A stretch of 64,000 nt of DNA from Pseudoruegeria sp. HB172150. Its GTDB lineage: Bacteria; Pseudomonadota; Alphaproteobacteria; Rhodobacterales; Rhodobacteraceae. The notes beneath the pieces were generated by a model. It was not told where the DNA came from and did not search any database. It was given only the letters and a program-made list of their open reading frames with translations. Shown in pieces: positions 28,945-53,035 of this stretch (within the stretch, counting starts at the first letter, position 1; every line of letters starts with the position of its first letter). The translations under genes and the position numbers were made by a program. Where the stretch lies: the NCBI RefSeq assembly GCF_013184805.1, contig NZ_JAATNG010000001.1:1550001-1614000 (forward strand), written 5' to 3'.

Positions 28945-29000
28945 CGCGACTTAATCGGACGACACCTGAAACCGAACTGAAGACCCGAAAGGATCGAGCC

Positions 29001-29432
29001 ATGAGAATCATCGCTGCGCTCATTGCTGGCGTTGCCTTCGCGCAGGCTGCACTTGCCGAGGAAGCTGTAACCTACGACTTTGGCGGCAGCTTCGAGGATG
29101 CGACCTTTGCCGTTGAATCGGCCATCGTCGACCAGGGACTTGTCATCGATTACGTCAGCCATGTGGGCGAGATGCTGAACCGCACCGGCGAGGATGTAGG
29201 CAGCGACGTTAGCCTCTTCGACGCGGCGGATGTCTTCCTATTCTGCTCTGCCGTCGTCTCGCGCGAGGTGATGGAAGCGGATCCAATGAACGTCGTCCAT
29301 TGTCCCTACGGGATTTTCGTCGCCTCAATGGACGGAAAGGTGGTCATTGGTCATCGCGACTATCCGGACGGGCCGATGGACAAGGTGGAGACACTGCTCG
29401 ACGACATCATCCAAGACGCAATCGCCGATTAA
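29001..29432 (+). CDS. Secreted DUF302 protein in the sox locus
   Basis: A 143-residue protein with a signal peptide (MRIIAALIAGVAFAQAALA) and a DUF302 domain; the LFCSAVVSREVMEADP and CPYGIFVASMDGKVVIGHRD segments fit that domain. DUF302 proteins have a small alpha/beta fold, and some sit near sulfur or copper genes. It has two cysteines in the mature part. The start is MRII at 29001 after AGGATCGAG; the longer frame from 28941 overlaps soxD. It lies 56 bases after soxD. The function is not known. I infer a periplasmic accessory role in sulfur oxidation from position only. Confidence 0.75.
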   Translation: MRIIAALIAGVAFAQAALAEEAVTYDFGGSFEDATFAVESAIVDQGLVIDYVSHVGEMLNRTGEDVGSDVSLFDAADVFLFCSAVVSREVMEADPMNVVHCPYGIFVASMDGKVVIGHRDYPDGPMDKVETLLDDIIQDAIAD

Positions 29433-29520
29433 GGCTCGCACACGCAAACATTCGCATATCTTGACCCACATCATGCCCAATGAGTCGCTTCGCTACTAAA
29501 GGGACCGACGGAGGCATCCG

Positions 29521-34636: not shown

Positions 34637-37600
34637 TTGAGGGATATTGGTGCTATTGACACTGAGAGTGTTGTAGTCATCGGCTATGCCGCGCGTTTGC
34701 CCGGAGCAGACAATGTTGGAGAAGTCTGGGAGACTTTGATCAACGGCAAATGCGCAGTCAGCCCGGTGCCAGACGACCGTTGGTCGAGCATTCGCTATTT
34801 CGATCCCAACCGTTCGGCCGCCGGCAAGAGCTACGCGCGTCATGCCGGCCTGTTGAAGAACGTCTACGATTTCGATGCAGAGTACTTTCATCTGTCACCG
34901 CGTGAAGCGCAGCAGATGGACCCGCAGCAACGGGTATTGCTCGAAACCGTGGCTAGCGCGTTCGACAATGCCGGTGTCGATCCAGCCGGGTTGGATAAGG
35001 AGCGCACTGGGGTCTTCGTGGGCGCAGCGTCATCGGATCACTCCACCACCTGCCTTCAGGATCCGACGCTTGTCGACGCTCACTACATGCTCGGCAATAC
35101 TCTGTCGATCATCTCGAACCGGATCTCGTATCATTGGGACATTCAGGGGCCCAGCTACACCGTAGACACGGCCTGTTCCTCCGGCCTGTTCGCACTGGAT
35201 CAGGCGCGCAAGTCCATCGCGGCGGGCGATATCGACACGGCCATTGTGGGCAGTGTGAACATGCTTCTGTCGCCGATGCCGTTCATTGGTTTCTCCAAGG
35301 CTTCGATGCTGTCCGCCACCGGCCTCTGCCAGGCGTTCGGCCGCAACGCGGACGGTTACGTGCGTGCAGAAGGCGCAGTCGTCTTCGTCCTGCGCAGTGC
35401 AGATCTGGCCCGGAAGTCGCATGACCGGGTTCGGTCCTACGTTGCTGCGACCGGCACCAACAGCGACGGCAGGACGCCGGGCATCGCGATGCCTTCGAGC
35501 AACCGGCAGAATGAATTGCTCGAGTTCGTGAAGCGGCGTTTCGAAGTCGATCCGGAAGATCTGGCATTCGTCGAAGCGCACGGCACCGGCACCCCGGTGG
35601 GCGACCCGGAAGAGGCACGCGCAATAGGCATGGCGTACGGCCAGAACAGGTCCACTCCGCTCCCCATCGGTTCGGCGAAAACTAACTTCGGCCATTTGGA
35701 ACCCGCCGCGGGGCTGGTTGGCCTGTTGAAGGCTCAGCTTTCGCTCGAGAACAACCTGCTGCCACCATCGCTCCACTCAGAAGAATTGAACCCGAACATT
35801 CCCTTCGAAGAACTCGGGCTTGAGGTCGTGCGTGAAGCGCGCGCTTTGCCGAAACGCGAAGATCCTTGGTATGCCGCGGTGAACTCCTTTGGCTTCGGTG
35901 GCGCAAATGCGCATGCGGTGCTGCGCCAAGTAACGCAGCCGGCACAGCCCAAGGTGGATTATCCGAAGGCATTAATCCTGACCGCCGAAAGCCAGTCTTC
36001 GCTTCGTCAACTGGCTGAGAATTGGCAGGTCCGTGCGCAGGAAAAGAAACCTGGTCTCGCGCAGGCGTTGGTCAACGCAAACACAAGGATCGCCCGGCAC
36101 CGGTACCGGCTATGCTTGCCGGCGAACTCGCCGGAACGGCTGAACGAAAACTTGGGCAGCTGGCTTCGGGGCGAAAAGAACAAATTCGTTGCTGATGGCG
36201 TTGCCAGAAACGCCGATGCGGATGTCGGTTTCGTCTTTTCCGGCAACGGGTCGCAATGGGCCGGAATGGGCCGATACATGCTGCTCAACGACGGTGTGTT
36301 CCGCGATAGCTTCACCGCGACCAGTGCGCTGGCCGTCAAGCTTGGCTCGGAGTCCCTGCTCGACCTGCTGATGTCGACCGATCTTGGCGCGCGGCTTGAC
36401 CGCGCCCCGGTCGCACAACCGCTGCTGCTGGCGATACAGATCGCCGTGGTTGACGCGCTTGCCGCCATCGGCCTGGGTCCGGCGGCCGTTTTGGGCCACT
36501 CCGCAGGCGAGGTTGCCGCGGCATATGCGTGCGGTGCGATCAACCGTGAAGAGGCCGTTCGGATCATCGTCGCCCGGTCTACGACGCTGGATCAACTTTA
36601 CGGCAAGGGTGCGATGGCCGCACTCGTCTGTGAGGAAGAGCGCGCGCGCGAGTTGATCGCGGCCGCCAAACTCGAGGTCGATATCGCAGCGGAAAACTCG
36701 GCCAAGAGTCTGACCGTTTCGGGTGCATCCGCGGATCTGGCCCATCTGCTCAAACTGGCACGCAAACAGCGCATCGCCGGCAAGCGGCTGGAAATCGAAT
36801 ACCCATACCATTCCCGCCTGAACGATCCACTTCGCCCGCGCCTCGTCGAGGAGCTGAGCGATTTCGCCGGCAAGCGCACGTCCATTCCCTTTTATTCGGG
36901 GTGTATGGGCCGCATCGTTCACGGCGACCAACTGGATACTGAATTCTGGTGGGCCAACGCGCGGAACAAGGTGCGTTTCCGCGATTGCATCGAAGCGATG
37001 GCGAGGGACGGCGTTTCACTTTTCCTAGAGATCTCACCAAAGTCAGTCCTGCAATCCTATATCCGGGACACTCTTGACGGGGCAGGCCTGGGCGGCGCTG
37101 TGCTTGGCAGCCTAGAACAGGCTGACAGTGAGCAGATCAACGCAAAAAGTATCGCACTGAACGTTCTTGCTCAGGGTGGAACTTTGGAGGAGGATGCACT
37201 GCTCGGCACAGCGGTTCCCTTCGCAAGCGGCCTCCCCGACTATCCGTTCGAACGCAAGACGCATCGGATGATTTCCGATGAACAGGTTGATTTGTTCGGA
37301 CGGCGGCCGCATCACCCGCTGCTTGGCAGTCGGCTCTATCCAAATTCCTCTGTCTGGACGTCCGAACTGTCGCTTGCACGCCAGCAATGGCTGGGCGATC
37401 ACAAGGTCGACGGCCAGGTAATTCTACCGGCGACCGCTATCGTGGAGCTCTTCTTGGCCGCAGCTCAGGAGATGTCTGGCGACGGTGCGGTCGAACTGAG
37501 AAACCTCGAGATCCTGCGGCCCGTCCACATCGGCGAAACGGAAAATGTCCCGATCCGGGTGTCCTACGACAGCGTCGCTAGGCGGCTGACACTGGAAATG

Positions 37601-40600
37601 AATACGGGCGGCGGCTGGGTTTGGGTGGCCGGAACGGCCTTGTTCCAAACCGAATCCAAGCCGCCCGCGCATATCGAGCTTGCCGAAGGTAATAAGGACG
37701 GAGCGCTCTATACATCGCTTGCCGAACTCGGCCTCGCTTATGGTCGCTCGTTTGCAAGGGCCGACCGTCTAGCAGTCAGCGATACGTCGGTGGATGTCTG
37801 GCTCGCTCCGCCGACTGAATCCGTGACGGGGTTCTGTCTGGATCCTACTTCAACCGATGCGGCCCTCCATGGCGTGCTGCCGATGCTCCGGCAGCACAAT
37901 GCGAGCCGCAAGGGTGTTGTCTTCGTCCCGGGCCGCGTCGGCCGTGTCCGATGGTTCGGGCAGGGCGAGATCACCGGTGCGCGCCTAAGCCTGCGCAGTG
38001 CCAGCATCGCGGGTCTATGCGTTGATGTTTGCTATCTCGACGCCATGGGCAAATCCGTAGCGCTGTTCGAAGAATTGCGCCTGCGCCCGATGCCGGTGGG
38101 CCGTAGCGAACGTCCACTGTTCTGGGATGAAAGACGTATTTCGATTGACGGGCATTCCCATTCCGGCCACCTCGAAGCGGTGGCCGGAATGGCGCAGGAA
38201 CCCGATGCGCCGGCCTCGGACCTTCAGGTCCTACGCGACACCATTGGAAGTAGGCTGGCGTGGGATATCGTGACAGCGCAAGAGCAGGACGCTTCGCTCG
38301 ACCGACGTTACCAGACCGCGCTGTCCGCGCTCGAGTCGATGGAGATGGTGGCGATCGACGAGGCCGGATTGGTCACCGTTAAGGGCGACTGCCCGTGGCC
38401 AGAAATGTCCACACTCCTGACGCTGCTAATCGAAACCGAACCTGACGCAGTCGACGAAATCCAAGCCACGTTGCACGGAATGGTGTCTGACCTGCTCAAT
38501 AAAGCGGTCGGCATCGAATGTCTGCGTGCTGCGGCTCTGGCTTTGCTGGGTGAGAATGCTGAAACCGTTCCCAGGGTGCTCATGGTGGGGCGGATCGATC
38601 GCGCCGTATTCCTGAAACTTCTGAACATTTCCGGCCATCTCGTTGTCGCGGCAGAAAATTCAGACGAAGCAGAAGCGCTTCGCCTGAGCCTCGACGATGC
38701 GGATCGGTGCCTTGTGACGACAATTGACGAAGCGCTGACGCTTCCGGGCTTCGACATGGTGGTCGGTCTGGGTGTGTCCGAAACGCTGTCTGCCCCTGTG
38801 CAGAAGCGTATCACCCGCAATGGCACGAAGGGTGCCCGGCTGCTTTTGGTCGATCATGCAGTCGACCTGTTCGAACTAATGACCGGACGCTACTCCAACT
38901 CCGATGCGATCGATCAACTGGATGCCAATCTGGTGCTGGGCGGCGTGGAGGTGGAGCGGAACACTTGGACTGGTGCGGCGAATGTCACGTTCCTCACTGC
39001 TGAACTCATCGCGAAATCCGAAACTGCCGACATTGCGGTCACCGTGCACGGTTCCGGAAACCTCGCCATGGCCTTGCGCTCAGTACACCAGGATGCCGAG
39101 CCCGGCAGAGTCGCGATTGTCGCGCTGGACGCGCAAGATGACCTGTTGACTACAACGCTAGCTCAGTCAGAAGCCATGCGCGATCTGCCGGCCGACGCGG
39201 TCGTTGTCTGGATCGTCCAGTCCGGACTTCAGGGCGAAGCGTCACTGAGAGGCTGGCGCCGCGTCCTGGCGAATGAGACCGGGCGTGATATCCGCTGCAT
39301 CAGCGTGGACAATGACGTAGATCCCACTAGGATTCTGCACCTTGCCGCCACCAACCGCGAACGCGAACTCAGCGTGACCGCAGATGGCAGCAGCGGCCTG
39401 CGCCTTCTGCCCGCGCTTAGAGATCCGCTGACAATCGGTGGCGACCAGAAAGCCACACTGACGCAATCGGCACACGGTCGGATCGAAAGCCTTTCTTGGA
39501 CTGTCTCGGCGCGGCAGGCACCAAAGGACGATGAAATCGAACTCGCTGTCGAAGCCACTGCATTAAACTTCCGAGATGTGATGTGGGCCCAAGGCCTGCT
39601 GCCAAGCGATCTGCTCGAAGGCGGGTTCGCCGGACCGACTCTGGGCATGGAGTGTGCCGGCATCGTGACACGCGCCGGCAAGGCATCGGGTTTCGCGACC
39701 GGTGACCGCGTGCTTGCCTTCGCGCCGGACGCCTTCGCAAGTCACGTTACCGTTTCCGGCCGCGCGGCTGTGGCGATCCCGGAGGAATTGAACCTCGGCC
39801 TCGCGGCGTCGATCCCGGTCATCTTCGTGACCGCCGAATACGCGCTTACCGACCTTGCGCGCCTGCGTAAGGGCGAGTGGTGCCTGATCCACGGCGGGGC
39901 TGGCGGTGTGGGGCTTGCCGCAATCCAGGTCGCCAAGCGGGCCGGCGCCCGGATCATCGCCACCGCCGGGTCCGACGAAAAACGGGCATTGCTGCGCTCA
40001 CTCGGTATCGAACATGTCTGTGACAGCCGCAGCCTTAGTTTCTGCGACTACGTTGAAAAGGTCACCGAGGGCCGCGGTGTCGATGTTGTCCTGAACTCCT
40101 TAGCCGGTGAGGCGATGGAGCAGGGCATCGGCTGTCTGGCGCCCTTTGGGCGTTTCATCGAGCTGGGGAAACGCGATTTCGTCGCTAACACAGCAATCGG
40201 TCTACGGGCGCTCAAGAACAATATCTCGTATTTCGCTGTCGATGCCGACCAACTGCTAGGACATCGCCCCGCACTCGTAGGCGAGATCATGAGCCGGATC
40301 GTCGGTGCCTTCACCGCCGGCGACTATACCTTCCCGCCCGTCCGCCGTTTCCCGGCAGAAATGGTCGGCGACGCTTTCACCCTGATGCTGCGCTCGGGGC
40401 ATATCGGCAAGATACTGATTGCTCCGCCACAGGTGAATGACGCCAACGTCTCCAGTGCAACGGAACTCGGTGGTAGTTGGCTGATCGCAGGCGGCACGCG
40501 TGGCTTTGGCCTGGCGACTGCGAAGTGGCTATCGGACCGTGGGGCAAAGACGCTCTGGCTGGCCAGCCGCAGTGGCGAGATCGCTGAGCGCGAGATCGTC

Positions 40601-41632
40601 GATACGCTGGTTGCAAAGGGCGTCCGTATTGAAGCGCGGGCTGTCGACCTGATGGATGAGGACTCGGTCAAGGGCCTTATGGACGAAATTTCGGCCGACA
40701 ATGATGGGCTGACCGGTATCGTCAATGGCGCTGCGGTCTTCGATGACGCGATGTTCGCCGACACCAACACCGATAGACTGCGCCGTGTGATCGCCGCCAA
40801 GCTTCTCAGTGCACAGAACCTCGATACAGCTTCGCGCGGTTTCGAACTGCGGCACTTCTGGCTCTATTCTTCAGTCTCTGCGCGCTTCGGAAACCCAGGT
40901 CAGTCGGCCTATGTCGCCGCGAATATGGAGCTCGAAGCGATGGCGCAACGACGTCGCGCAGAAGGCCTGCCTGGACTTGCTATCGCATGGGGCCCGATCG
41001 GCGACGCCGGCTACCTTGAACGCTCGGATGAGGTGAAAGCTGTCATCGAGCGCAAGATTGGCAGGCCGATGCGGGCACAAGATGCGTTCAATGCTTTGGC
41101 CCAGGCGCTGGAAGCGGACGGGAACCGGGCTACGATTACCATCGCACCGGTGGAATGGTCGCGCCTGATGAGCGATCTTCCGGTGGTCTCCGAGCCGTTG
41201 TTCGAATGCCTCGACCTTCGGCAGGATGTTGGCGGTGCCGATGGAATGATCGATCTAGCCGGGTTGATCGAAGCGGAAGGCGAGGCGAAAGCCCGGAAGA
41301 TGCTCGTAGAATTGCTGCAACGTGAAGCTGCGCAGATCATGCGCATCGCCCCGTCTGAGATCGATGTGGACAGGGAACTGGTCGAACTCGGCTTCGATAG
41401 TCTTATGGGCATGAGCCTGAAACTTGCAATGGAAGAGCGTCTCGGAACCGCGACGCCGATGACTTCCATCGCCGACGCCATGACGCTATCGAAACTCGCG
41501 CATTCCATCGTTGCATCTGCCATTGCGGGCAAAGAAGATACCGTGACAGAAACAATGGCCGAACGTCACCTGACGGAATCGGACCTGCCAGAAGAATTGA
41601 GACAAAAGATCGCCGATGCCGCCGCCGGATAA
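34637..41632 (+). CDS. Iterative-type type I polyketide/fatty-acid synthase, KS-AT-DH-ER-KR-ACP
   Basis: A 2331-residue single-module, fully reducing synthase. Domains in order: KS at about 10-430 with C180 (DTACSSGL), H315 (EAHGTGTP) and H353 (NFGHLEPAAG); AT at about 530-840 with S622 (GHSAGE) and H725 (YPYHSR); DH at about 890-1170 with H922 (HKVDGQVILP) and D1074 (TDAALHG); a 400-residue stretch without a SAM motif; ER at about 1610-1930 (LNFRDVMWAQGLL, GGAGGVGLAAIQ); KR at about 1945-2150 with Y2092 (IAGGTRGFGLA, GQSAYVAAN); ACP with S2255 (GFDSLMGMSL). There is no thioesterase, so release needs a partner, supplied by the oxoamine synthase whose start overlaps its stop. The layout resembles RkpA of Sinorhizobium capsule clusters. 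The start is an unusual TTG with no good ribosome site; an in-frame stop at 34601 prevents a longer protein. Confidence 0.9.
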   Translation: MRDIGAIDTESVVVIGYAARLPGADNVGEVWETLINGKCAVSPVPDDRWSSIRYFDPNRSAAGKSYARHAGLLKNVYDFDAEYFHLSPREAQQMDPQQRVLLETVASAFDNAGVDPAGLDKERTGVFVGAASSDHSTTCLQDPTLVDAHYMLGNTLSIISNRISYHWDIQGPSYTVDTACSSGLFALDQARKSIAAGDIDTAIVGSVNMLLSPMPFIGFSKASMLSATGLCQAFGRNADGYVRAEGAVVFVLRSADLARKSHDRVRSYVAATGTNSDGRTPGIAMPSSNRQNELLEFVKRRFEVDPEDLAFVEAHGTGTPVGDPEEARAIGMAYGQNRSTPLPIGSAKTNFGHLEPAAGLVGLLKAQLSLENNLLPPSLHSEELNPNIPFEELGLEVVREARALPKREDPWYAAVNSFGFGGANAHAVLRQVTQPAQPKVDYPKALILTAESQSSLRQLAENWQVRAQEKKPGLAQALVNANTRIARHRYRLCLPANSPERLNENLGSWLRGEKNKFVADGVARNADADVGFVFSGNGSQWAGMGRYMLLNDGVFRDSFTATSALAVKLGSESLLDLLMSTDLGARLDRAPVAQPLLLAIQIAVVDALAAIGLGPAAVLGHSAGEVAAAYACGAINREEAVRIIVARSTTLDQLYGKGAMAALVCEEERARELIAAAKLEVDIAAENSAKSLTVSGASADLAHLLKLARKQRIAGKRLEIEYPYHSRLNDPLRPRLVEELSDFAGKRTSIPFYSGCMGRIVHGDQLDTEFWWANARNKVRFRDCIEAMARDGVSLFLEISPKSVLQSYIRDTLDGAGLGGAVLGSLEQADSEQINAKSIALNVLAQGGTLEEDALLGTAVPFASGLPDYPFERKTHRMISDEQVDLFGRRPHHPLLGSRLYPNSSVWTSELSLARQQWLGDHKVDGQVILPATAIVELFLAAAQEMSGDGAVELRNLEILRPVHIGETENVPIRVSYDSVARRLTLEMNTGGGWVWVAGTALFQTESKPPAHIELAEGNKDGALYTSLAELGLAYGRSFARADRLAVSDTSVDVWLAPPTESVTGFCLDPTSTDAALHGVLPMLRQHNASRKGVVFVPGRVGRVRWFGQGEITGARLSLRSASIAGLCVDVCYLDAMGKSVALFEELRLRPMPVGRSERPLFWDERRISIDGHSHSGHLEAVAGMAQEPDAPASDLQVLRDTIGSRLAWDIVTAQEQDASLDRRYQTALSALESMEMVAIDEAGLVTVKGDCPWPEMSTLLTLLIETEPDAVDEIQATLHGMVSDLLNKAVGIECLRAAALALLGENAETVPRVLMVGRIDRAVFLKLLNISGHLVVAAENSDEAEALRLSLDDADRCLVTTIDEALTLPGFDMVVGLGVSETLSAPVQKRITRNGTKGARLLLVDHAVDLFELMTGRYSNSDAIDQLDANLVLGGVEVERNTWTGAANVTFLTAELIAKSETADIAVTVHGSGNLAMALRSVHQDAEPGRVAIVALDAQDDLLTTTLAQSEAMRDLPADAVVVWIVQSGLQGEASLRGWRRVLANETGRDIRCISVDNDVDPTRILHLAATNRERELSVTADGSSGLRLLPALRDPLTIGGDQKATLTQSAHGRIESLSWTVSARQAPKDDEIELAVEATALNFRDVMWAQGLLPSDLLEGGFAGPTLGMECAGIVTRAGKASGFATGDRVLAFAPDAFASHVTVSGRAAVAIPEELNLGLAASIPVIFVTAEYALTDLARLRKGEWCLIHGGAGGVGLAAIQVAKRAGARIIATAGSDEKRALLRSLGIEHVCDSRSLSFCDYVEKVTEGRGVDVVLNSLAGEAMEQGIGCLAPFGRFIELGKRDFVANTAIGLRALKNNISYFAVDADQLLGHRPALVGEIMSRIVGAFTAGDYTFPPVRRFPAEMVGDAFTLMLRSGHIGKILIAPPQVNDANVSSATELGGSWLIAGGTRGFGLATAKWLSDRGAKTLWLASRSGEIAEREIVDTLVAKGVRIEARAVDLMDEDSVKGLMDEISADNDGLTGIVNGAAVFDDAMFADTNTDRLRRVIAAKLLSAQNLDTASRGFELRHFWLYSSVSARFGNPGQSAYVAANMELEAMAQRRRAEGLPGLAIAWGPIGDAGYLERSDEVKAVIERKIGRPMRAQDAFNALAQALEADGNRATITIAPVEWSRLMSDLPVVSEPLFECLDLRQDVGGADGMIDLAGLIEAEGEAKARKMLVELLQREAAQIMRIAPSEIDVDRELVELGFDSLMGMSLKLAMEERLGTATPMTSIADAMTLSKLAHSIVASAIAGKEDTVTETMAERHLTESDLPEELRQKIADAAAG

Positions 41633-42974
41633 AACAGCCGAGAAATCTGACCGACAATCGTTGCTTGCAAACCTGCGGCAGACCCACGAAGCCAAGCGGC
41701 CGCGCCCGGTCGTGTCGACGGGCAGATCGAAGTCGCAGTCCGGCTCCTTCGATTTTTCGCGTCATCCAGCCTATTCTGAGGTGCGCGTTGCTAAGGCCGC
41801 CGGGCAGACCCTCGGCGTGCAATCTCCGTTCTTCCGTGTTGCCGAAGCGGTCCGGACGACTGAGGCGAAGTTTGACGGCAAATGGGTCCGTAACTTTTCA
41901 TCCTACGACTATCTTAGCTTGAACCTGACCGAACAGGTGCAGGGGCAGGCCAAGCAGGCGATCGAGAACTGGGGCATTTCCGCAACCGCTTCCCGCCTCG
42001 TCGGAGGTGAGCGCACGGTGCATGTCGAACTGGAGAAACGGCTCGCACATTTCGTCGGAACTGAGTCCGCACTGGCCATGGTCTCCGGGCACGCAACCAA
42101 CATGGCGCTGGTCAGCACACTTCTCGGGCCTGGCGACCTCGTGCTCGTTGACACATTGGCGCACAACTCGATCTATGAGGGCATTCGCGCTTCTGGAGCC
42201 GCGCACTCGACCTTCCCGCATAACGATTTCGCCTGGGCGGACCAGTATCTGTCCACGGCGCGCTCGCGCTACAAGAACGTGTTAATCGTAATCGAAGGTC
42301 TCTACTCGATGGACGGCGACGCCCCGGATCTCGCGAAATTCATCGAGGTCAAGCGGCGGCACGACACCTGGCTGATGGTGGACGAGGCGCATTCGGTCGG
42401 TGTTTTGGGAGCCACAGGACGCGGCATCTGTGAGGAGCAGCAGGTCGACCCGTCAGATGTCGAAATCATCATGGGCACGCTGTCCAAGGCGTTCTGTTCC
42501 TGCGGTGGTTTTATTGCGGGGTCGGCGGCGCTCGTCGACCTGATGCGCTACCGCGCGCCGGGTTTCGTCTATTCAGTCGGGCTGTCGATGCCGAACGCAG
42601 CTACCGCCATGGCATCTGTCGACGCCATCGAAAACGCGCCGGAACGGGTGCAGGAACTGCGCAGGTTATGCCAATTCTTCAAAACGACTGCGGAAGAACT
42701 CGCGCTCGATACTGGTCCCAGCCAAGGCTACGCGGTCTGTCCGATCATCATCGGCGACTCGCTCAAGGCCGTCTGGATTTCCAACAAGCTGCTGGAAGCC
42801 GGGTTCAACGTGCTTCCAATTATCACGCCCGCCGTACCCAACAAGAGCGCGCGGCTACGCTTCTTCTTGAACTACGGGCACGATGAGGACATGATCCGCG
42901 CGGTCTTGACCGAGACGGCAGTCCTGCGCGAGCGATCAAAGACCATGTCCCTTCAGGAAATGGCGGGCGGCTGA
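41616..42974 (+). CDS. Alpha-oxoamine synthase (AONS/KBL/SPT family; RkpG-like)
   Basis: A 452-residue PLP enzyme that joins an amino acid to an acyl thioester with loss of CO2, giving an amino ketone. PLP-site features are D256 in VDEAHSVGVLG and the Schiff-base lysine K291 in TLSKAFCSCGG. The AONS core (SYDYLSLN, ISATASRLVGGERTVHVELE, LIVIEGLYSMDGD as shorter pieces) is intact. An N-terminal extension of about 85 residues precedes the core. It overlaps the end of the PKS gene by 17 bases, so it is translationally coupled and very probably releases the PKS chain. No biotin gene is near, which argues against BioF. RkpG of Sinorhizobium and fungal Fum8 are the closest functional parallels I know. 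Confidence 0.9.
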   Translation: MPPPDKTAEKSDRQSLLANLRQTHEAKRPRPVVSTGRSKSQSGSFDFSRHPAYSEVRVAKAAGQTLGVQSPFFRVAEAVRTTEAKFDGKWVRNFSSYDYLSLNLTEQVQGQAKQAIENWGISATASRLVGGERTVHVELEKRLAHFVGTESALAMVSGHATNMALVSTLLGPGDLVLVDTLAHNSIYEGIRASGAAHSTFPHNDFAWADQYLSTARSRYKNVLIVIEGLYSMDGDAPDLAKFIEVKRRHDTWLMVDEAHSVGVLGATGRGICEEQQVDPSDVEIIMGTLSKAFCSCGGFIAGSAALVDLMRYRAPGFVYSVGLSMPNAATAMASVDAIENAPERVQELRRLCQFFKTTAEELALDTGPSQGYAVCPIIIGDSLKAVWISNKLLEAGFNVLPIITPAVPNKSARLRFFLNYGHDEDMIRAVLTETAVLRERSKTMSLQEMAGG

Positions 42975-43017
42975 ACCGTATTAGCCGTTTCCAATGGGGT
43001 AAAAGGCGCGGCACCCA

Positions 43018-46000: not shown

Positions 46001-46251
46001 AAGGCGCAAAAGCGCTCTCGTTCAGGGAATCCAGCCGACGGCGCAGAAATCGTCCGCAGTGGGAGGCGAAAGGACCATACGGGCTCCTCGGCTGGCGCCA
46101 CCTGCTGACACCTTTCGTCGCACCCGTGATCGGTCGTATTGGCGATGTACATGACGTGGATCACTACCGCGACGATCCCATCGGCTTTTTCCGACGCCTG
46201 TCAGACCCGCGATACCGCCGGATCGGGCGGATCCTCTATCCCCGGGACTAG
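43018..46251 (+). CDS. Large capsule-cluster fusion: glycosyltransferase-like N-part plus HAD hydrolase
   Basis: A 1077-residue protein with at least two parts. Residues 1-370 resemble GT-B type capsule transferases; the piece YFSRHPNEPRLDREV and later SSSILEEARYFGKDVW have the look of nucleotide-sugar or phosphate transferases such as KpsS-like proteins. Residues 385-620 are a HAD phosphatase domain: DVFDTLIT with nucleophile D391 and D394, LLSDMYLPRD, the lysine in LTKRSGTLFRRL, and the acidic motif GDNQRGDQ. Residues 640-1077 follow the pattern of C-terminal regions found in HAD-containing polysaccharide proteins (FGYIALGPLLAGFSDWL, GFLTREGPVMRAAWE). It is 43 bases after the oxoamine synthase, in the same operon. 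I infer a role in making the polysaccharide or its lipid linker. Confidence 0.7.
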   Translation: MDQSTDSSGVQISGVRLCGDFLATRESEQASNLRWFGDLLERPITSALASCTVCRGLTDPLDRAALLEGAVDKRALADRHCWFDPGAVAEKSIDTICQAVGVGTLVVGYELSPMTRTVLDRAGLAWLDIWLHPVRFADDVLFGLRASDRRMQSRLSKFAIADESLWAQADILRVQNYRGFAKFESSLSPGSALFICQTARDKSVLDRNGFLNILDFRSEFSGIARNHSHVYFSRHPNEPRLDREVDAFLKSHGNVSEITAPAYHLLADPRIATVASISSSILEEARYFGKDVWRFFRPPFPLTGDDAYTTVLQDFCFSHFWAAILQDLADTRDCAPAGFVDPKNKLRHALSFYWGYRFIDKAELASMPANATIPSEPARPTLETAELVSFDVFDTLITRRYADPADVFVAIAAKASEIIGSQSTNFVDRRRAAERAATARANRAGREDPTLAEIYQSLLSCDFDDPRVAELCAMEIAEELKSVLPRPVGAKLYQKARQAGRRIVLLSDMYLPRDTVESLLKHCGYEGWDDLYLSSEYGLTKRSGTLFRRLQDDTALPVNGILHIGDNQRGDQAVPESLGIACRPLPKAIEIMRTAAPFLRKGTNRIAEANTLNGSRMIALIAQRNYDEPASDPQTDALGRDAETFGYIALGPLLAGFSDWLNRRATERDIQTLGFLTREGPVMRAAWEALFPQSAIKAKTVFASRRIVRPATIVNREQIARIFRDADPGRYRDWDEFLDVQFGVRDCSASRSGIDCDQLPDLTASIGPRASEVDHSNALSTLQQPILQHAIDARVNLRAYLDETGLSGDRAGVVDIGYAGRVQAAFSQVTGADIAGFYAAKFRTADDILGSLPSQAYLVSGVTANDRAHGICRHRHVFETLLCAPGPSFVGIRKIDGQWQGIPAADSDTPQRDAFVTAAHAGAIRFVQDFAELYDASEEIPPSVATALLEAILDDPSRNLAEWLGALEFDDAFAFPGTSTLVNSEAGASSSVWREGAKALSFRESSRRRRNRPQWEAKGPYGLLGWRHLLTPFVAPVIGRIGDVHDVDHYRDDPIGFFRRLSDPRYRRIGRILYPRD

Positions 46252-46275
46252 CCCGGAAACGCAGCCTCGGAGCCA

Positions 46276-47586
46276 CTAGATCGCATCCGTTACTGCGTAG
46301 GGTGGCGGTGCTGCTAGCCACCCGGCTAGCGCCTTTGCACCCGCAATCGCGCCGGGGCCGTCGAACGTACCTGGCACATGAAAACAGGAGCGCAGGAAAT
46401 CGCAGAAAGCATCGACTCGCTCTGCATCGGGCGCCTGAGGGTCGTTCCAGAATTCATCAAGCGGCTGTTGGTCGGTCAGCCCGGCGCTGCGATAGACGGA
46501 CCGTCCTAGTACATGCGTCGAGCACCCCGCCTGGAGCGCTGTCAGGCCGACGGTGGAATTGACCGTCACCACCCCGTCGGCCCGTGCCAGCAAACCGTTA
46601 AGGTCGCCGCCATCCAGGTAGATTACCCGCGAACCCGCCGGCTCTACTCGCGCACGCCAGTCGGTCAGACCGTTATCGAGAGGGTGGGTCTTCACTACCA
46701 GCGCGGCATTGAGGCTCGCGTTGCCCAGAAAGGATGTAACGACCCGGTCCAGAATTTCCTCTTGTGGCTCACCCGTCCCCGATTTGAACAGTTGCACATC
46801 GTGCGAAAGCTGCAGCGGAAACAGGAACAGAGGGCCGTCATGTGCCGCGACCCGTTTCAGCGCCTCACAGCGTGAACGTTGACGGGCAGACGATAACACC
46901 GATTTCAGGATCCAGCCGCTATATTCCCGGATCGGGTGAATGCCGGAATGGGAGCGGTAATGCGGATAGGTCAGCCATGAGAGTGCCAGATTGCTGGCGT
47001 GATATGTCACATCCATGGCCGCGTAGCGCCGGAACGACCCCTTCCAGCGCGGCAGCGTTCCCACCTGTGCGATGTTGCCAGCTGCGAGGAAACGGGCGGG
47101 TATCGTCGATGCGCCTCCCATCCCGTCAGGCTCGATCAGAATTAAGTCGGGCCGCAGGTAGCCATGCTCGACGATCCAGATCCGGACATTCATCCGGTGC
47201 GTGGTAATCTCCTCAATGGCGGCGGCATGCGGCGTGCGCCCGTCTCCGAGCATGATGACATCCGTCACGCCAAGGGACACTGCAGTCTCCCGGAACCAGG
47301 CCCCAAACGCCTCGGCACGCCCGCGATAAGACAGGTAGCGGCCCGCCCGACCGTTCCAGAAGATACGCTCGCCAGGGCAAAAGCCGACTTTACTGACGTC
47401 TCCGCCGCGCGCCCGCAGAGCGAACCCGAGATGTAAGAAAAAGCGTGACGAAGGACCCTGCAGGAGCAGGAATCGCCGGCCCTCTAGGCTATCTGGGCTA
47501 GCGCCCTGCTGCACAATTGCAGCCGTTCCTTCGTGCGCCTGATTCTGCATCGTCAGTTGCTTGAGATTGCCTGCAGGGTCCATCAT
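46276..47586 (-). CDS. KpsS/KpsC-type capsule polysaccharide protein (leftward copy)
   Basis: A 436-residue cytosolic protein of the capsule polysaccharide synthesis family that contains the Kdo-transferases KpsS and KpsC. Features are FLLLQGPSSRFFLHLG near the N-terminus, SYRGRAEAFGAW, IVEHGYLRPDLILIEPDG, LFLFPLQLSHDVQL and VKTHPLDNGLTDW followed by VVTVNSTVGLTALQAG near the C-terminus. It is a paralog of the next gene, sharing most of these motifs. It is read leftward, against the flow of the rest of the operon, and starts two bases from the start of its paralog, head to head. It may begin at 47550 instead. It presumably builds a linker between the lipid and the polysaccharide. Confidence 0.85.
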   Translation of the reverse strand: MMDPAGNLKQLTMQNQAHEGTAAIVQQGASPDSLEGRRFLLLQGPSSRFFLHLGFALRARGGDVSKVGFCPGERIFWNGRAGRYLSYRGRAEAFGAWFRETAVSLGVTDVIMLGDGRTPHAAAIEEITTHRMNVRIWIVEHGYLRPDLILIEPDGMGGASTIPARFLAAGNIAQVGTLPRWKGSFRRYAAMDVTYHASNLALSWLTYPHYRSHSGIHPIREYSGWILKSVLSSARQRSRCEALKRVAAHDGPLFLFPLQLSHDVQLFKSGTGEPQEEILDRVVTSFLGNASLNAALVVKTHPLDNGLTDWRARVEPAGSRVIYLDGGDLNGLLARADGVVTVNSTVGLTALQAGCSTHVLGRSVYRSAGLTDQQPLDEFWNDPQAPDAERVDAFCDFLRSCFHVPGTFDGPGAIAGAKALAGWLAAPPPYAVTDAI

Positions 47587-47588
47587 AA

Positions 47589-48875
47589 GTGGAAAAAATC
47601 CGCCTTGAAGTGGAAATCGAGCACGTGAGCCAGGCAGAGCCCAATCAAGCCCAAGACAGACGTTGCATCCTGATGCTCCAGGGGCACCCGTCGCCCTTCT
47701 GGGGTCTTCTCGCTGATGGGCTGGTGGCAGACGGTCACCGTGTGCTCAAGGTCAACTTGTGCTTTGCCGACCTGGTTTACTGGGGGCGGCGTCCGGCCGT
47801 TTCTTACCGGGGGCGCTACAGCAAATGGGCTGGTTGGCTCCGGGCCTACCTGCAAAAGGAAGGCGTCACCGACATTCTCTACTACGCGGACCGGCTGCCC
47901 TATCATGCAGATGCGCTCGAGGTGGGCAAAGAGCTTGATATACGCTGCTGGGCCATCGAACACGGATACCTGAGACCGGACTGGCTGACCATGGAACCTG
48001 AAGCCATGGGCGCGCTGTCGACCTTTCCAAAGGACATGGCGGCCATAGAGCGGCTCTCCGAAGGTGTAGAACCGCCGGACATGGTGAACCGCTATTCTTA
48101 TCCGTTTTCGGTCGAAGCGTTTCACGAGGTTACTTTCGGGTTGTTGCAAGCCTACGGCCGGCCATTCTATCCTCTCTACTACTCCGACAAGATCTACTGG
48201 CCAGCGGTCGACTACATAGGCTGGTTAGGAGAACTGGCTTTCGAGCGGCGCAGAAAGCGTGAGGCCGAGCGGCTCGAACAATGGGCGGTCAGCGGAGAGG
48301 TATCCTATAACCTCATCGCGATGCAAATTCAGGCCGACTACCAGATCCGGGCCTCCTCGAAGTACACACATCTTCTGGAATTTCTCGAAGAGGTTTTTGC
48401 CTCTTTTTCACGCCACGCGCCTTCGGACCGACATCTCTTCATCAAGCTGCATCCTCTGGACAACGGTCTGGAACGCTGGTTCTCGAAGACGGCGCGCATC
48501 GCCGAGCGCTTCGGCCTTGGTGATCGGGTTCACGTAATGAAAGGTGGCGATCTCACGATACTCCTGCGCAGGTCCAAAGGTGTTGTCCTCGTGAATTCGA
48601 CCGTTGGCCTGCATGCACTCAGGCATAACGTACCCACATATGTGGCCGGGGCGGCCGTCTTCGACGTCGCGGGCCTGACCCATCAAGGCGACCTGAATAC
48701 CTTTTGGATCCACCCAGACGCAGTCGATACCAAATGTTTCGACGCCTTCCAGCGCGCGATTACCCGAATTCAGATCAAGGGGTCCTTTTACAACCCAGAG
48801 GGCCGGGAGGTGGCGATAAAGGAGATCCGCAAGCGTCTTTCGGTGGACGATCCTCAGGCGTTTTCGATGATGTAG
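47589..48875 (+). CDS. KpsS/KpsC-type capsule polysaccharide protein (rightward copy)
   Basis: A 428-residue paralog of the gene at 46276-47586, with matching motifs: ILMLQGHPSPFWGLLADG, SYRGRYSKWAGWLR, AIEHGYLRPDWLTMEPE, AMQIQADYQIR, IKLHPLDNGLERW and VVLVNSTVGLHALRHNVP. The start is a GTG with AGGG nine bases upstream. The second base pair of motifs, a GxL-P and a late STVGL box, are those that mark this family. Its 3' end overlaps the convergent kpsM gene by 22 bases. Having two members of the family fits the KpsS-KpsC division of labour, in which one adds the first Kdo and the other extends the linker. Confidence 0.85.
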   Translation: MEKIRLEVEIEHVSQAEPNQAQDRRCILMLQGHPSPFWGLLADGLVADGHRVLKVNLCFADLVYWGRRPAVSYRGRYSKWAGWLRAYLQKEGVTDILYYADRLPYHADALEVGKELDIRCWAIEHGYLRPDWLTMEPEAMGALSTFPKDMAAIERLSEGVEPPDMVNRYSYPFSVEAFHEVTFGLLQAYGRPFYPLYYSDKIYWPAVDYIGWLGELAFERRRKREAERLEQWAVSGEVSYNLIAMQIQADYQIRASSKYTHLLEFLEEVFASFSRHAPSDRHLFIKLHPLDNGLERWFSKTARIAERFGLGDRVHVMKGGDLTILLRRSKGVVLVNSTVGLHALRHNVPTYVAGAAVFDVAGLTHQGDLNTFWIHPDAVDTKCFDAFQRAITRIQIKGSFYNPEGREVAIKEIRKRLSVDDPQAFSMM

Positions 48876-49651
48876 CTCTTGTGCCGGAAAATCAGCGCAC
48901 CGCCTAGCAGGTAAAAGAACACGCCCAGACCGATCGGATAGCCGAGATTTACGAATTCCCCGTCGTAGATCGGAAAAAAGGCCTTGTGCGCTTGCGCGGT
49001 CACGTGCACCAGCGGGTTCAGCAAGAGGATCGACTGCACCTGCGTCGGCATCGACTCGACGGTGTAGAAAATCCCGGAAAGCAGGAAGAGCGGGCGGCTG
49101 ACGATCGCCCAGACGTTCTTGTAAAATGGAAAGAACGTAAACAGTACCACGTTCAGAGTCCCACCGCCTAGGCCGAGTATCGAGGCGGCCAGGCAGGCCG
49201 AAATGAACTCAAGAAGCGATATCCGGATCGGTTCGGAAATCAGCATGTCGATTCCGAACAGAACCACTACTGTCACCACGATCATTGTCAGGGCCTGCAA
49301 TGCGGAGCGCGCGATGACCGCGTCCATGGGAGAGACCATGGGAAAATGCATCAACGACCGGTTGCTTGTCACAGAGGTTGAGGTAATCGAGTTGATGGTG
49401 TTGTAGAAGGAAAACGGCAGGTACCCGGCCGCGTAGAAGAGTATGAAGCTCGTGCCCAAAGGCGGCGTTCGCAGGAACTGCGAGAATGCCAGCGACAACA
49501 TGGCGATCATGCCGACTGGCTCTGCAATCGCCCAGAAATAGCCGCCCCAGGAACGGCCGTAACGTGTGATCATTTCGCGCACCATAAGTGCGGAAATCAC
49601 TCTAAGCATTTGAAAGCGTGGGATGTTCGTCTGGTCTGTCATTCGGGACAC
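48854..49651 (-). CDS. kpsM: Capsule ABC exporter permease KpsM-like
   Basis: A 265-residue ABC-2 type inner-membrane permease with about six helices that exports polysaccharide. Family features are LRVISALMVREMITRYGRSWGGYFWAI at the cytosolic N-terminus (in shorter pieces: LMVREMITRYG, GGYFWAIAEPVG) and the end LFLLSGIFYTVESMP, then NPLVHVTAQAHKAFF. An alternative start at 49642 is as good. It is on the opposite strand to its partners kpsE and kpsT and diverges from kpsE across about 100 bases, which is an unusual arrangement. Its end overlaps the end of the KpsS-type gene by 22 bases. It pairs with the ATPase at 50935-51591. Confidence 0.92.
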   Translation of the reverse strand: MSRMTDQTNIPRFQMLRVISALMVREMITRYGRSWGGYFWAIAEPVGMIAMLSLAFSQFLRTPPLGTSFILFYAAGYLPFSFYNTINSITSTSVTSNRSLMHFPMVSPMDAVIARSALQALTMIVVTVVVLFGIDMLISEPIRISLLEFISACLAASILGLGGGTLNVVLFTFFPFYKNVWAIVSRPLFLLSGIFYTVESMPTQVQSILLLNPLVHVTAQAHKAFFPIYDGEFVNLGYPIGLGVFFYLLGGALIFRHKSYIIENA

Positions 49652-49753
49652 GTGGCCGTAGGGCCGTTCAAAAGCGCGCTATTCCGTAGCGCCTCACTTG
49701 TGCTACCTGTTTCTCTGAGAGTAAACCCAAGCAGATACAAGCTAACCGGGCCC

Positions 49754-50938
49754 ATGTCGAAACCACAAGCTGTGAAATTGGCGGATACCAGCAAGCCGTC
49801 CGAACCGCCGGTAAAATTGACGCCCCCTGCGCCGAAAAAGCGCCGCAAGGTTCGTCATGTGCTGCTCGCATTGTCGTTCGTGCTCTTTGTCGTTGCGCCG
49901 GTAGTCGCGAGCGCGGTGTATCTCTACACGTTCGCGACCGATCAGTACCACTCCAAAACGGCGTTTTCTGTCCGTTCAGAGGAAATGTCGAGCCCGTTGG
50001 ATGTGATCGGCGCCTTCACCCAGACCGGCTCGAATTCCGCGCCGGACAGCGAGATCATCTATGATTTTATCCGGTCGCAGCCCCTGATCGAGGACATTGA
50101 CAAGGAACTAGACCTTCGCTCCATCTACAACATTCCCGAGAGGGACCCGGTATTTGCCCTCGGAGATGATCGCTCTATCGAGCAACTTGTCGCCTATTGG
50201 GATCGAATGGTTACCGTAGAGATAGATTCGAATTCTGGTGTCCTCGAAATCGAGACCCGGGCGTTCACGGCAGAAGATGCACAGCGGATCGCGGAGACCA
50301 TTATCGCAAAATCGGCGGATCTGGTCGAGGATCTAAGCCGGATCGCGCGTGAGGACTCGATGCGCTTCACCGTGCAGGATGTTGTGAAGGCGGAAGAGCG
50401 GCTGAAGGAGAATCGGATCCGGATTCGCGAATTCCGGAGCGAGTATCAGATCATCGATCCCGAAGCGGATGTCGAAAGCCAAGTTGGCATTATCGCTGCT
50501 TTGCAAAGCAAGCTTGCGGATTCACTGATCGATCTGGAAGTAATCCAAAGCTACTCTGTTGAAGATGACCCGCGGCTTCCCAACATCCGGCGGCGTGTCG
50601 ATGCGATTAGAAACCAGATTGCGGATGAGCGCGCGGCCGTTAGCAACCAGTCCCTGAACGGCAAATCGCTGTCGGAGGTCATCGGCGAGTACGAGGAACT
50701 CCTTGTGGACCTGGAATTCTCACAGAACGCCTACACCGCCGCGCTTGCCGCCGAGGAACAGGCACGTATCGAGGCCAATCGGCGCAGCCGTTACCTCGCG
50801 GTACACGTTCCGCCGACCAGGGCGCAGGACAGCCTGTATCCCGACCGATTCCTGCTTATCGTTGTGATCTTTGCCTGCGCATTCGCCTTCTGGGGTGTCC
50901 TGGTGATGATCTACTACAACGTTCGGGATCGGCGATGA
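49754..50938 (+). CDS. kpsE: Capsule export inner-membrane/periplasmic protein KpsE-like
   Basis: A 394-residue membrane-fusion-type protein of the polysaccharide co-polymerase family. A proline-rich, basic cytosolic tail (PAPKKRRKVRHV) leads to a first transmembrane helix (LALSFVLFVVAPVVASAVYLY) and the typical segment TFATDQYHSKTAFSVRSEE; a long periplasmic region with coiled-coil character (EERLKENRIRIREFRSEYQ) follows; a second helix (FLLIVVIFACAFAFWGVLV) is near the C-terminus. The start at 49754 is the first ATG that gives the tail; the ribosome site is weak. It overlaps kpsT (ATGA) and is divergent from kpsM. It bridges the exporter to an outer-membrane KpsD-type protein not present in this window. 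Confidence 0.9.
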   Translation: MSKPQAVKLADTSKPSEPPVKLTPPAPKKRRKVRHVLLALSFVLFVVAPVVASAVYLYTFATDQYHSKTAFSVRSEEMSSPLDVIGAFTQTGSNSAPDSEIIYDFIRSQPLIEDIDKELDLRSIYNIPERDPVFALGDDRSIEQLVAYWDRMVTVEIDSNSGVLEIETRAFTAEDAQRIAETIIAKSADLVEDLSRIAREDSMRFTVQDVVKAEERLKENRIRIREFRSEYQIIDPEADVESQVGIIAALQSKLADSLIDLEVIQSYSVEDDPRLPNIRRRVDAIRNQIADERAAVSNQSLNGKSLSEVIGEYEELLVDLEFSQNAYTAALAAEEQARIEANRRSRYLAVHVPPTRAQDSLYPDRFLLIVVIFACAFAFWGVLVMIYYNVRDRR

Positions 50939-51591
50939 TCGAATTCCACGACGTTTGGAAGGCATTTCCCTACAAGGGCGGAACGAAGCAGATAGTCACC
51001 GGTCTGACCCTGGCCTTCCCCAAAGATCGAAGTATTGCCATTATCGGTCGGAACGGCGCGGGAAAATCGACGCTTCTGAGCATGATTGCAGGCACGATTG
51101 ATCCGGATCGAGGGGAAATCGTGAAACTTGGCCGGACGAGCTGGCCAATGGGATTCAGGGGCGGCTTCCATGGCGACCTTACCGGCCGGCAAAACACACG
51201 TTTTGTGGCAAGGATCTACGGTACGAACACCGAAGAGATGGAGGCCTATGTCGAGGAGTTCGCCGAACTCGGGCGCTTCCTCGACATGCCTGTCCGCACC
51301 TATTCGTCGGGAATGAAGGCGAGGCTCGCCTTCGGCGTTAGCCTTGCCGCGCGTTTCGACTGTTACCTTGTCGACGAGATCACCGGCGTTGGCGATTCGC
51401 GGTTCCGGGCGAAATGCCGCCGCGCCTTCAAGGAGCGCGTGGCCACATCCCAGATCATCATGGTGTCGCACTCGGACAACACCTTGAGATCGTATTGCGA
51501 GTCGGCGCTGCTGCTCGAGAACGGGACTGCTACTTTCTTCGACGATCTCGAGGAAGCGTTGGAAATCTACGGGCAGGTCATGGCCCACTGA
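50935..51591 (+). CDS. kpsT: Capsule ABC exporter ATPase KpsT-like
   Basis: A 218-residue ABC ATPase of the polysaccharide-export class. Walker A is GRNGAGKST at residues 38-46, the signature is YSSGMKARLAFG (typical KpsT form) and Walker B is YLVDEITGVGD. The sequence FHDVWKAFPYKGGTKQIV, seen as FHDVWKAFPYKGG, and GFRGGFHGDLTGRQNTRFVARIYG in shorter form are family hallmarks. It overlaps kpsE by four bases and is followed 25 bases later by the P450. It powers KpsM. Confidence 0.95.
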   Translation: MIEFHDVWKAFPYKGGTKQIVTGLTLAFPKDRSIAIIGRNGAGKSTLLSMIAGTIDPDRGEIVKLGRTSWPMGFRGGFHGDLTGRQNTRFVARIYGTNTEEMEAYVEEFAELGRFLDMPVRTYSSGMKARLAFGVSLAARFDCYLVDEITGVGDSRFRAKCRRAFKERVATSQIIMVSHSDNTLRSYCESALLLENGTATFFDDLEEALEIYGQVMAH

Positions 51592-51616
51592 GACATAATC
51601 GGGCAGGTAGCGGACC

Positions 51617-53035
51617 ATGAAACTGGGGCCAAGATGGCATTCGAGAATCGAGCGGCAGGGATCGAGCTTCGTTCCTCCCTATCCGCATAGACGCACCGAT
51701 CCGGCGAACACCTTCGAGCTTGTGCGGCTGTACAGGAATAGCCTCATCTCCGTTTTCTCAAAACGGGACTACAAGCGCGATGTCATCTCCACTCGCTTCG
51801 GCCTACTCGACGTTCACACCGTCAACACGGTGGATCTGGTTAAGGAAGCACTGCACGTTCACCACGAAACGCTTCAGGCAAAGACGCCGCAGATGCGCCA
51901 TGCCCTGAAGCCGCTTCTTGGCGACGGACTGTTCGTTTCCGACCGGGAGACTTGGGCCTCTCGCCGCGCCGTGGTCAGCCCGATCATCCATGCCAGCCGG
52001 GTGAAGGACTTCGCGCCGATCATGTTGGACGTCGTCGCCGAGTGGCGTGACTCCTGGCTTGCGCTCGGCGACGGGGCAGAAGTCGACGTACTCGCCGAAA
52101 TGGCGGAACTGACCGCCGAAATCATCTCGCGCACGGTCTTCGGCCGGCGGCTTGGCCGCGAATTCACCGCAGAGATCGTGCGAGGGTTCAGCCAGTACCA
52201 AGCCCATGTCGATCAACTCGACGTCCTGTCCCTGATCCGGGCGCCGGACTGGATTCCGCGTTTCCAGAGTAGGGCGGCCCGCCGCGCGCTGCGCCGCGTA
52301 CATCGTGTCATCGACGACATCATCGAAGAGTTCGCACAGGGTCGCGGCGATGAGACTGCGGTGATCGCCCAGCTGTTCAGTTCGCGCGATGCGGAGGGCA
52401 ACAAGCTGACGCGTGAGGCTATCCGCAACGAAGCGATCGTCATCTTCATGGCTGGCCATGAAACGACCGCGAACACCCTTGCCTGGGCCTGGTACCTTTT
52501 GTCTCAGAGCGAACGCGTACGCACCAAATTCCATACCGAGATCGATGCGCTCGGCCATCTTCCGGGCTTTGCCGATGTGCGCGAGTTGATTTACACGCGT
52601 TCGATCATCGAAGAAACACTGCGTCTCTACCCGCCGGTTCCGATCCTTGGCCGTCAGGCGCTCGACGACACCCAGATCGGTGACACATTCATACGTAAGG
52701 GATCTGTCGTCATGATCTGTCCCTTCATGCTACACCGTAAACGATCTATCTACTCTCGGCCGGATTACTTTATTCCGGAACGGTTCGATGAACGTATCGC
52801 CAAGCGGCCGGAGAAATACGCGCATATCCCCTTTGCCATCGGCCCGAGGATCTGCCCCGGCCTGATGTTCGGCCTGACTGAGGCGATCATCTCGCTGGCT
52901 ACCCTAGGCCAGCAGTTCGACATAGACCTTAAACCGGGCCACGAAGTGCAACCGGTGTGCCGCCTGACACTACGACCCGGCGCGACGCTCCCAATGTTAC
53001 TAAGAAGACGGCAGGCGCAAAGGAAGGCGGCCTGA
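51617..53035 (+). CDS. Cytochrome P450 at the end of the capsule operon
   Basis: A 472-residue haem monooxygenase. The I-helix oxygen-activation motif is A279-G-H-E-T-T284, the ExxR pair is E333/R336 in EETLRLYPPVP, and the haem-binding loop is FAIGPRICPG with C413 as the iron ligand. The early part DRETWASRRAVVSPIIHASR is the usual C-helix region. There is no signal peptide or membrane anchor, so it is soluble. No ferredoxin or reductase gene is nearby. It begins 25 bases after kpsT on the same strand and is probably cotranscribed. A P450 is not part of known capsule systems; a lipid or polyketide substrate from the PKS/oxoamine synthase is the natural guess. Confidence 0.93.
   Translation: MKLGPRWHSRIERQGSSFVPPYPHRRTDPANTFELVRLYRNSLISVFSKRDYKRDVISTRFGLLDVHTVNTVDLVKEALHVHHETLQAKTPQMRHALKPLLGDGLFVSDRETWASRRAVVSPIIHASRVKDFAPIMLDVVAEWRDSWLALGDGAEVDVLAEMAELTAEIISRTVFGRRLGREFTAEIVRGFSQYQAHVDQLDVLSLIRAPDWIPRFQSRAARRALRRVHRVIDDIIEEFAQGRGDETAVIAQLFSSRDAEGNKLTREAIRNEAIVIFMAGHETTANTLAWAWYLLSQSERVRTKFHTEIDALGHLPGFADVRELIYTRSIIEETLRLYPPVPILGRQALDDTQIGDTFIRKGSVVMICPFMLHRKRSIYSRPDYFIPERFDERIAKRPEKYAHIPFAIGPRICPGLMFGLTEAIISLATLGQQFDIDLKPGHEVQPVCRLTLRPGATLPMLLRRRQAQRKAA

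Follow-up and report, generated by a model that had tools for sequence, protein, structure and literature searches.

What does a cytochrome P450 do in a capsule locus that also carries a polyketide synthase (PKS) and an alpha-oxoamine synthase (AONS)? The question is raised by positions 34637–53035 of a 64,000-nt stretch, hereafter the window, of the genome of Pseudoruegeria sp. HB172150 (contig NZ_JAATNG010000001.1; Rhodobacteraceae). An earlier note on this DNA had suggested that these genes make a sphingoid- or fumonisin-like lipid for a surface polysaccharide, and a check of open reading frames recovered every gene that it named, including an overlap between the PKS and AONS genes and a short gap before the P450 gene. 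The explanation favoured here, to which a probability of about 0.45 is given with its parts taken as dependent, is that this is an ABC-transporter (Kps) type capsule locus with its own sphingoid-lipid pathway; in the chemistry that we infer, a sphingoid base made by the PKS and AONS would be tailored by the P450 and would anchor the capsule.

The PKS-AONS module

The reducing PKS (34637–41632, + strand) comprises KS, AT, DH, ER, KR and ACP domains, with no thioesterase domain detected (Pfam, E ≤ 0.001), and resembles RkpA, WcbR and SgaA in make-up. Its KS Cys and His, AT Ser, DH His, ER and KR nucleotide sites, KR Tyr and Asn and ACP Ser motifs are all present; a pattern search for the DH Asp gave no match at the expected place. 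The end of the PKS gene overlaps the start of the AONS gene (41616–42974, + strand) by 17 bases. The AONS has the aminotransferase fold (Pfam), with DEAH at 256 and TLSK, which holds the pyridoxal phosphate lysine, at 288. Its best PDB sequence matches are serine palmitoyltransferase chains, no NCBIfam equivalog cut-off is reached, and it is RkpG-like, and SgaB-like in make-up.

A thioesterase-less monomodular PKS, an AONS directly downstream and adjacent capsule synthesis and export genes together characterise the known capsule module of the RkpA/RkpG and WcbR kind, as described in passages of PMC3908369. The PKS also has the DPQQR/HGTGT motif pair used in that source to recognise Rkp/Wcb-type synthases (EAHGTGT at 313; DPQQR intact in the translation). 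The proposed kinship with Sinorhizobium RkpA and RkpG is supported, and the window AONS is 46% identical to a Sinorhizobium record. In rkp-1 of Sinorhizobium (RkpA, RkpG, RkpH, RkpI, RkpJ) and wcb of Burkholderia (WcbR and its AONS, presumably WcbT), a monomodular reducing PKS is likewise followed by an AONS, often with a short-chain dehydrogenase/reductase (SDR), and the module lies beside KpsS-type genes. In contrast to the window, the 19 features annotated on the Sinorhizobium stretch include no P450, and the window has neither a linked SDR nor an RkpI-like sulfatase-family gene. That stretch (L167, CP090106.1) belongs to a 3.7 Mb record labelled pSymB, a label that may be wrong, as papers place rkp-1-like genes on the chromosome; its RkpI-like gene is unannotated, and the frame looks interrupted.

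The AONS was counted in 14 of 394 genomes of the family (E ≤ 1e-105) and in 14 of 385 of the class (E ≤ 1e-95), Pseudoruegeria sp. HB172150 being included in both. PKS sequence lies within the fetched stretch of all 13 other family loci and KpsS/C-type genes within that of 10; such genes gave no match at G276 and G083, and the G162 contig is only 3983 bases long. Across the loci placed in the AONS tree (window included), the KR-ACP end of the PKS was found at 35 of 36, the exception being G730, a count that sets aside three AONS paralogues of the Pseudoruegeria genome, none of which has this PKS end. Of 28 AONS locus sets, 23 have one or more Kps genes in the flanking DNA that was fetched; the 28 sets exclude the window and are not a random sample, as wide class-level flanks were fetched for 7 of 14 loci, P450-bearing genomes first, and 5 of 15 plasmid records with AONS matches were fetched. 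The module is likewise present in records of Sinorhizobium, Shinella, Methylobacterium, Paraburkholderia and Pseudomonas. On plasmid pII of Paraburkholderia dioscoreae, a gene annotated as an LpxC-type UDP-3-O-acyl N-acetylglycosamine deacetylase (L165, 13980–14894) lies between the PKS and the AONS. A second AONS of the Pseudoruegeria genome (L040, G000 C1:1995342–1996484; 45%) was rejected as a second copy of the system, since no PKS match adjoins it.

A cytochrome P450 beside kpsT

The P450 (51617–53035, + strand; 472 aa) exceeds the Pfam cut-off for PF00067 (226.8 bits) and has the I-helix Thr (AGHET), ExxR (ETLR) and heme Cys (FAIGPRICPG) motifs. As first reported, it follows a set of KpsM, KpsE and KpsT genes (open reading frames, Pfam and NCBIfam), with 25 bases between the end of kpsT (51591) and its own start. 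A literature search limited to open-licence PubMed Central turned up neither a paper with a P450 in a Kps locus nor one that connects PKS-made sphingolipids with capsule anchoring. The earlier note had left it to be seen whether the set of P450, PKS, AONS and Kps genes is conserved elsewhere. Genome contigs scanned for the P450 with narrow peptide patterns gave four matches that are 64–72% identical (L046; L047, on the same contig as that of G162; L048; L049), and the kpsT-P450 order is kept in two of them, with a 23-base gap in Silicimonas (L048) and a 25-base gap in L049, where the P450 is cut by the contig end. The linkage thus recurs in two other genomes, conservation of the set is supported, and an accident confined to a single genome, which the earlier note had named as a refuting outcome, was rejected.

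The P450 also tends to occur where the AONS does. At E ≤ 1e-85, P450 matches were present in 4 of the 394 family genomes, namely Pseudoruegeria sp. HB172150, G162 (64%), G263 (62%) and G229 (45%), and all of these except G229 have the AONS. In the class sample 6 of 385 genomes have the P450 and four have both genes, again with Pseudoruegeria included. With that genome left out, Fisher's test gave p = 2.9e-4 for the class and p = 0.003 for the family (G229 counted as negative), values that overstate independence because of kinship among the genomes sampled (G479 and G593 belong to one genus). The AONS was further found in all four genomes recovered by the separate P450 scan, one of which is G162 again. 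Two other origins of the P450 were rejected: the widespread Rhodobacteraceae kind shares about 30% identity and lies outside the clade, and no match was found in phage records at 1e-40.

In 9 of 12 P450-clade members other than the window, a Lip_A_acyltrans-type (LpxL-like) gene directly follows the P450 (G162, G263, G397, where it is cut by the contig end, G229, Shinella, R. tropici, Rhizobium 11515TR, G479 and G587), and in G162, G263, G397, G229 and Shinella the P450 and acyltransferase frames share a few bases. The G162 LpxL-like protein has no genome-wide match at 1e-8 in G399, G400 or the Pseudoruegeria genome, and only a 37-residue trace of it is seen in G593. A Shinella plasmid holds the P450-LpxL pair, PKS, AONS, SDR, KpsS-type and export genes within about 25 kb, and one contig of G587 holds the pair with PKS, AONS, SDR and kps genes within about 30 kb. 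Hydroxylases of other families also lie near the module: a fatty-acid-hydroxylase-family gene is found about 8 kb beyond the pair in Shinella, the second AONS-PKS of G587 has another beside it along with an LpxL-like gene, and a phytanoyl-CoA-dioxygenase-family gene adjoins the AONS on a Pseudomonas plasmid. This suggests that hydroxylation of the PKS-AONS lipid may recur. The second PKS-AONS set of G587 (L161, contig C9), with its FA_hydroxylase and LpxL-like genes nearby, has no P450 match in 20 kb. In G263 (L120, 10551–13709) the P450-LpxL pair is followed by DAO-type FAD oxidoreductase and Sulfotransfer_5 genes.

In the P450 tree the kps-linked members (window, G399 and G400, the last with a partial row) form one clade (100/100) inside a larger LpxL-linked set. 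The P450-LpxL pair may be the older arrangement; the P450 would then have come to lie beside kpsT a single time, and the acyltransferase would have been lost. The AONS tree likewise groups the window with G399 and G400 (95/77), G162 with G263 and G397 (100/100), and G593 with G479 (100/100). The two trees part elsewhere: the P450 tree sets G263 farther from the kps-linked trio than G397 and G162 (90/96, not starred), and in Shinella the AONS sides with that of Sinorhizobium, the P450 with those of R. tropici, G587 and G229.

Capsule genes and flanking sequence

Between the AONS and the P450 lie the genes for glycan synthesis and export. The protein previously described as a glycosyltransferase-like/HAD fusion is present at 43018–46251 (+ strand; 1077 aa) and is better described as capsule-polymerase-like. 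Pfam gave only a weak A-2_8-polyST match (E 0.012) and NCBIfam none; among PDB sequences, residues 16–365 match KrKA (9yfx; E 5e-79), residues 326–715 match Bcs3, the Hib (Haemophilus influenzae type b) capsule polymerase (E 2e-17), and residues 466–583 match a ribofuranosyl transferase (7shg; E 6e-9). Passages of PMC10299916 describe Bcs3 as TagF-like at its N terminus, with a phosphatase in the centre and a ribosyltransferase region at the C terminus. Both are multi-enzyme proteins, and the match at residues 326–715 covers the central phosphatase region of Bcs3; they differ in the N-terminal module, which is KrKA-like in the window protein and TagF-like in Bcs3. By these similarities the 1077-aa protein is a putative capsule polymerase, and its glycan possibly contains ribofuranose. 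Silicimonas has a relative of about 56% identity, spread over two contigs (L121, L048), and L122, the stretch behind L049, has two short matches only, to the last ~55 residues; this looks like a variable portion of the locus.

Two Capsule_synth proteins follow, at 46276–47586 (− strand) and 47589–48875 (+ strand; Pfam, NCBIfam). They had been called KpsS/KpsC-type, of which the KpsS part stands: both are single-module proteins, scoring 175 and 190 bits with the KpsS model (cut-off 600), and two long Pseudomonas capsule proteins, taken by us as KpsC-type queries, had no match in the window at 1e-9, so that a dual-module KpsC was not found there, in the stretch to which the search was confined. 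A PDB sequence search gave nothing usable for either protein or for the flanking lipoprotein described below. The export set is recognised by homology, without reaching NCBIfam cut-offs. It consists of a KpsM-type permease (48854–49651, − strand, probably starting at ATG 49642; Pfam ABC2_membrane, NCBIfam), a KpsE of the BexC/CtrB/KpsE family (49754–50938, + strand, probably starting at ATG 49754 in a frame open from 49610; below the NCBIfam cut-off) and a KpsT-type ATPase (50935–51591, + strand; Pfam ABC_tran). With KpsM and the first KpsS-type gene read from the minus strand, the locus consists of several short transcription units and not one operon, and the same strand pattern is repeated in L048, L049, L063 and L064. 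KpsM, KpsT, KpsE and KpsS-type proteins are shared by homology with the group 2 loci of E. coli, from which the window differs in its two single-module KpsS-type proteins, its own lipid pathway and its P450, with no KpsC-type match.

Two copies of a lipoprotein-like protein of about 200 aa flank the locus in the same orientation (31744–32346 and 53126–53731, both − strand). They share 66% identity over 160 residues and 72% over 242 bases, have no Pfam match and may be the borders of an inserted island; L122 has a homologue upstream of its PKS. Sulfur-oxidation-type genes (SoxA/TsdA cytochrome, Mo-oxidoreductase, cytochrome c, Sulf_transp) precede the capsule locus at 20940–30588.

A possible sphingoid anchor and its rivals

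The PKS, by its domain set, would build a saturated acyl chain on its own ACP. The AONS would release this chain by condensation with an amino acid (L-serine is the likeliest), giving a 3-ketosphinganine-type base, a step shown for SgaB of Pseudomonas fluorescens MYb115. In that strain the iterative PKS SgaA and the AONS SgaB make C24, C26 and C28 sphinganines, phosphoglycerol sphingolipids are most likely made as well, SgaB prefers L-serine, and the SDR SgaC is proposed to act on the ketone (passages of PMC12134224). With this precedent for sphingoid-type chemistry, production of a sphingoid-type base by the window PKS and AONS is probable. The likeness to SgaAB is one of make-up: both systems have an iterative type I PKS and an AONS, with serine palmitoyltransferase activity in SgaB, and they differ in that the MYb115 cluster has an SDR and the window no linked one.

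The fungal fumonisin cluster (Fum1, Fum8, Fum6, Fum13) shares the PKS, AONS and P450 enzyme classes, and an SDR with the window's relatives; the comparison once drawn with it holds for enzyme classes and not beyond, as a functional analogy with a fungal pathway. FUM13 is also named in a passage of PMC12134224.

On the evidence of linkage and co-occurrence, the P450 would hydroxylate the chain or base, and that it acts on the PKS-AONS lipid is somewhat favoured. In the presumed older arrangement, the LpxL-like acyltransferase would add an acyl chain to the new hydroxyl, by analogy with LpxL and LpxM, which act on hydroxyacyl chains; the kps-linked lineage seems to have lost this enzyme. The KpsS-type and polymerase-like proteins would then build the glycan on the sphingoid lipid, and KpsM, KpsT and KpsE would export it. 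Classical group 2 capsules have a lyso-phosphatidylglycerol anchor, which the sphingoid lipid would replace. That the lipid anchors or carries the capsule is likewise somewhat favoured, at a level below that of the base itself.

Two enzymes expected from related systems are missing from the window. In relatives a linked SDR, which adjoins the KpsS-type gene in L048 and L049, would reduce the ketone, and the 2-amino-3-ketone proposed in the earlier note may not be the end point; none occurs at the RkpH position in the window, nor was one found at several other AONS loci, so that in Pseudoruegeria either another SDR would do so or this reduction is lacking. In the window's relatives L048, L049 and L063 the SDR is only about 28–29% identical to that of Sinorhizobium. 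In the related systems the RkpI position holds what we take, from gene order and general knowledge, to be a sulfatase/lipoteichoic acid (LTA)-synthase-family gene. Genes of this family are linked in Shinella, Sinorhizobium, Methylobacterium, G680, Paraburkholderia and Pseudomonas and could add phosphoglycerol. Phosphoglycerol transfer by an LTA-synthase-like enzyme, to which Shinella, Sinorhizobium, Pseudomonas and Paraburkholderia point, was rejected as part of the window system, as no such gene was found there.

Several observations weigh against the sphingoid-anchor explanation. The P450 is absent at 1e-110 from all four other genomes of the genus, and its orthologue from 11 of the 14 family genomes with an AONS. 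In the AONS tree G061, G168, G036 and G101, which all lack an orthologue of the P450, come closer to the kps-linked trio, and G061, the trio's nearest relative there, has kps and SDR genes but carries glycosyltransferase-like genes after kpsT. Conversely, G229 has the P450-LpxL pair without an AONS at 1e-105, and G426 and G689, whose P450s are the most distant (36–39%), have none at 1e-95. Losses or transfers are needed to reconcile the two trees, so co-inheritance is partial, and confidence in this explanation and in its general form given below was reduced for that reason. The Pseudoruegeria genome has no SDR orthologue (best match 31% over residues 4–191), and no LTA-synthase/RkpI-type gene was matched in the window (tblastn, 1e-9) or at the Rhodobacteraceae loci examined, to which this search was confined. 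The SgaAB sphinganines are described without a capsule, and the Kdo (3-deoxy-D-manno-oct-2-ulosonic acid) capsule of S. meliloti 1021 has a phospholipid anchor according to a 2005 title cited in PMC4881576.

There are two rivals, each judged unlikely and about equally so. The PKS, AONS and P450 might make a free hydroxylated sphingolipid or secondary metabolite and merely neighbour the capsule genes, much as free sphinganines, and probably phosphoglycerol sphingolipids, are produced by MYb115; the main text of PMC12134224 contains no occurrence of “capsul”, “rkp” or “P450”. Kps queries also gave no match at 2 of the 13 family AONS loci (G276, 59 kb; G083, 57 kb) or at G754 and G587 C9 (20 kb each). 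A free product fits less well with the interleaved order of these genes with kps genes and the P450, kept in three genomes, with the kps genes found at most AONS locus sets, and with the requirement of the rkp-1 region for Kdo capsule secretion in S. meliloti (passage of PMC4881576). Alternatively, the P450, with its LpxL-like partner elsewhere, might act on another lipid, such as a lipid A acyl chain, and stand beside kpsT by chance or co-regulation. The substrates of LpxL and LpxM, the G229 pair and the partial disagreement of the trees favour this, as do the stretches fetched around the pair in G162, G263, G397 and R. tropici, which gave no match to the kps queries (G162 and G397 being short contigs). 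It is opposed by the co-occurrence of P450 and AONS, by the sharing of one stretch by the pair and PKS, AONS and kps genes in two distant lineages (Shinella and G587), and by the kps-linked genomes, which keep the P450 without a match to the G162 LpxL-like protein.

A further alternative, considered improbable, keeps the lipid within the capsule system as a carrier or helper in polymer synthesis or export and not as the final anchor. This is the original Rkp hypothesis, in which the rkp-1 product is “a specific lipid carrier” (PMC4881576) or “a lipid carrier or anchor” (PMC3557214, which places the rkp-1 region of R. tropici CIAT 899 on the chromosome), in the passages concerned; polymers of the KpsMT kind are, on the other side, described in a passage of PMC11041684 as made on a lipid anchor.

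The sphingoid-anchor explanation can be stated more generally, at a tentative and rather doubtful level: capsules of the Rkp/Wcb kind might sit on PKS-made sphingoid anchors in place of lyso-phosphatidylglycerol, tailored in each lineage by hydroxylases of the P450, fatty-acid-hydroxylase or phytanoyl-CoA-dioxygenase families, often with LpxL-like acylation. If that is true, the PKS-made sphinganines and phosphoglycerol sphingolipids of Pseudomonas would be anchor precursors. In passages of PMC4881576 and PMC3557214 the rkp-type lipid has so far been a hypothetical carrier or anchor; joining it with the SgaAB chemistry would give it a concrete, testable structure, for which the P450, with or without its LpxL-like partner, predicts a specific lipid modification.

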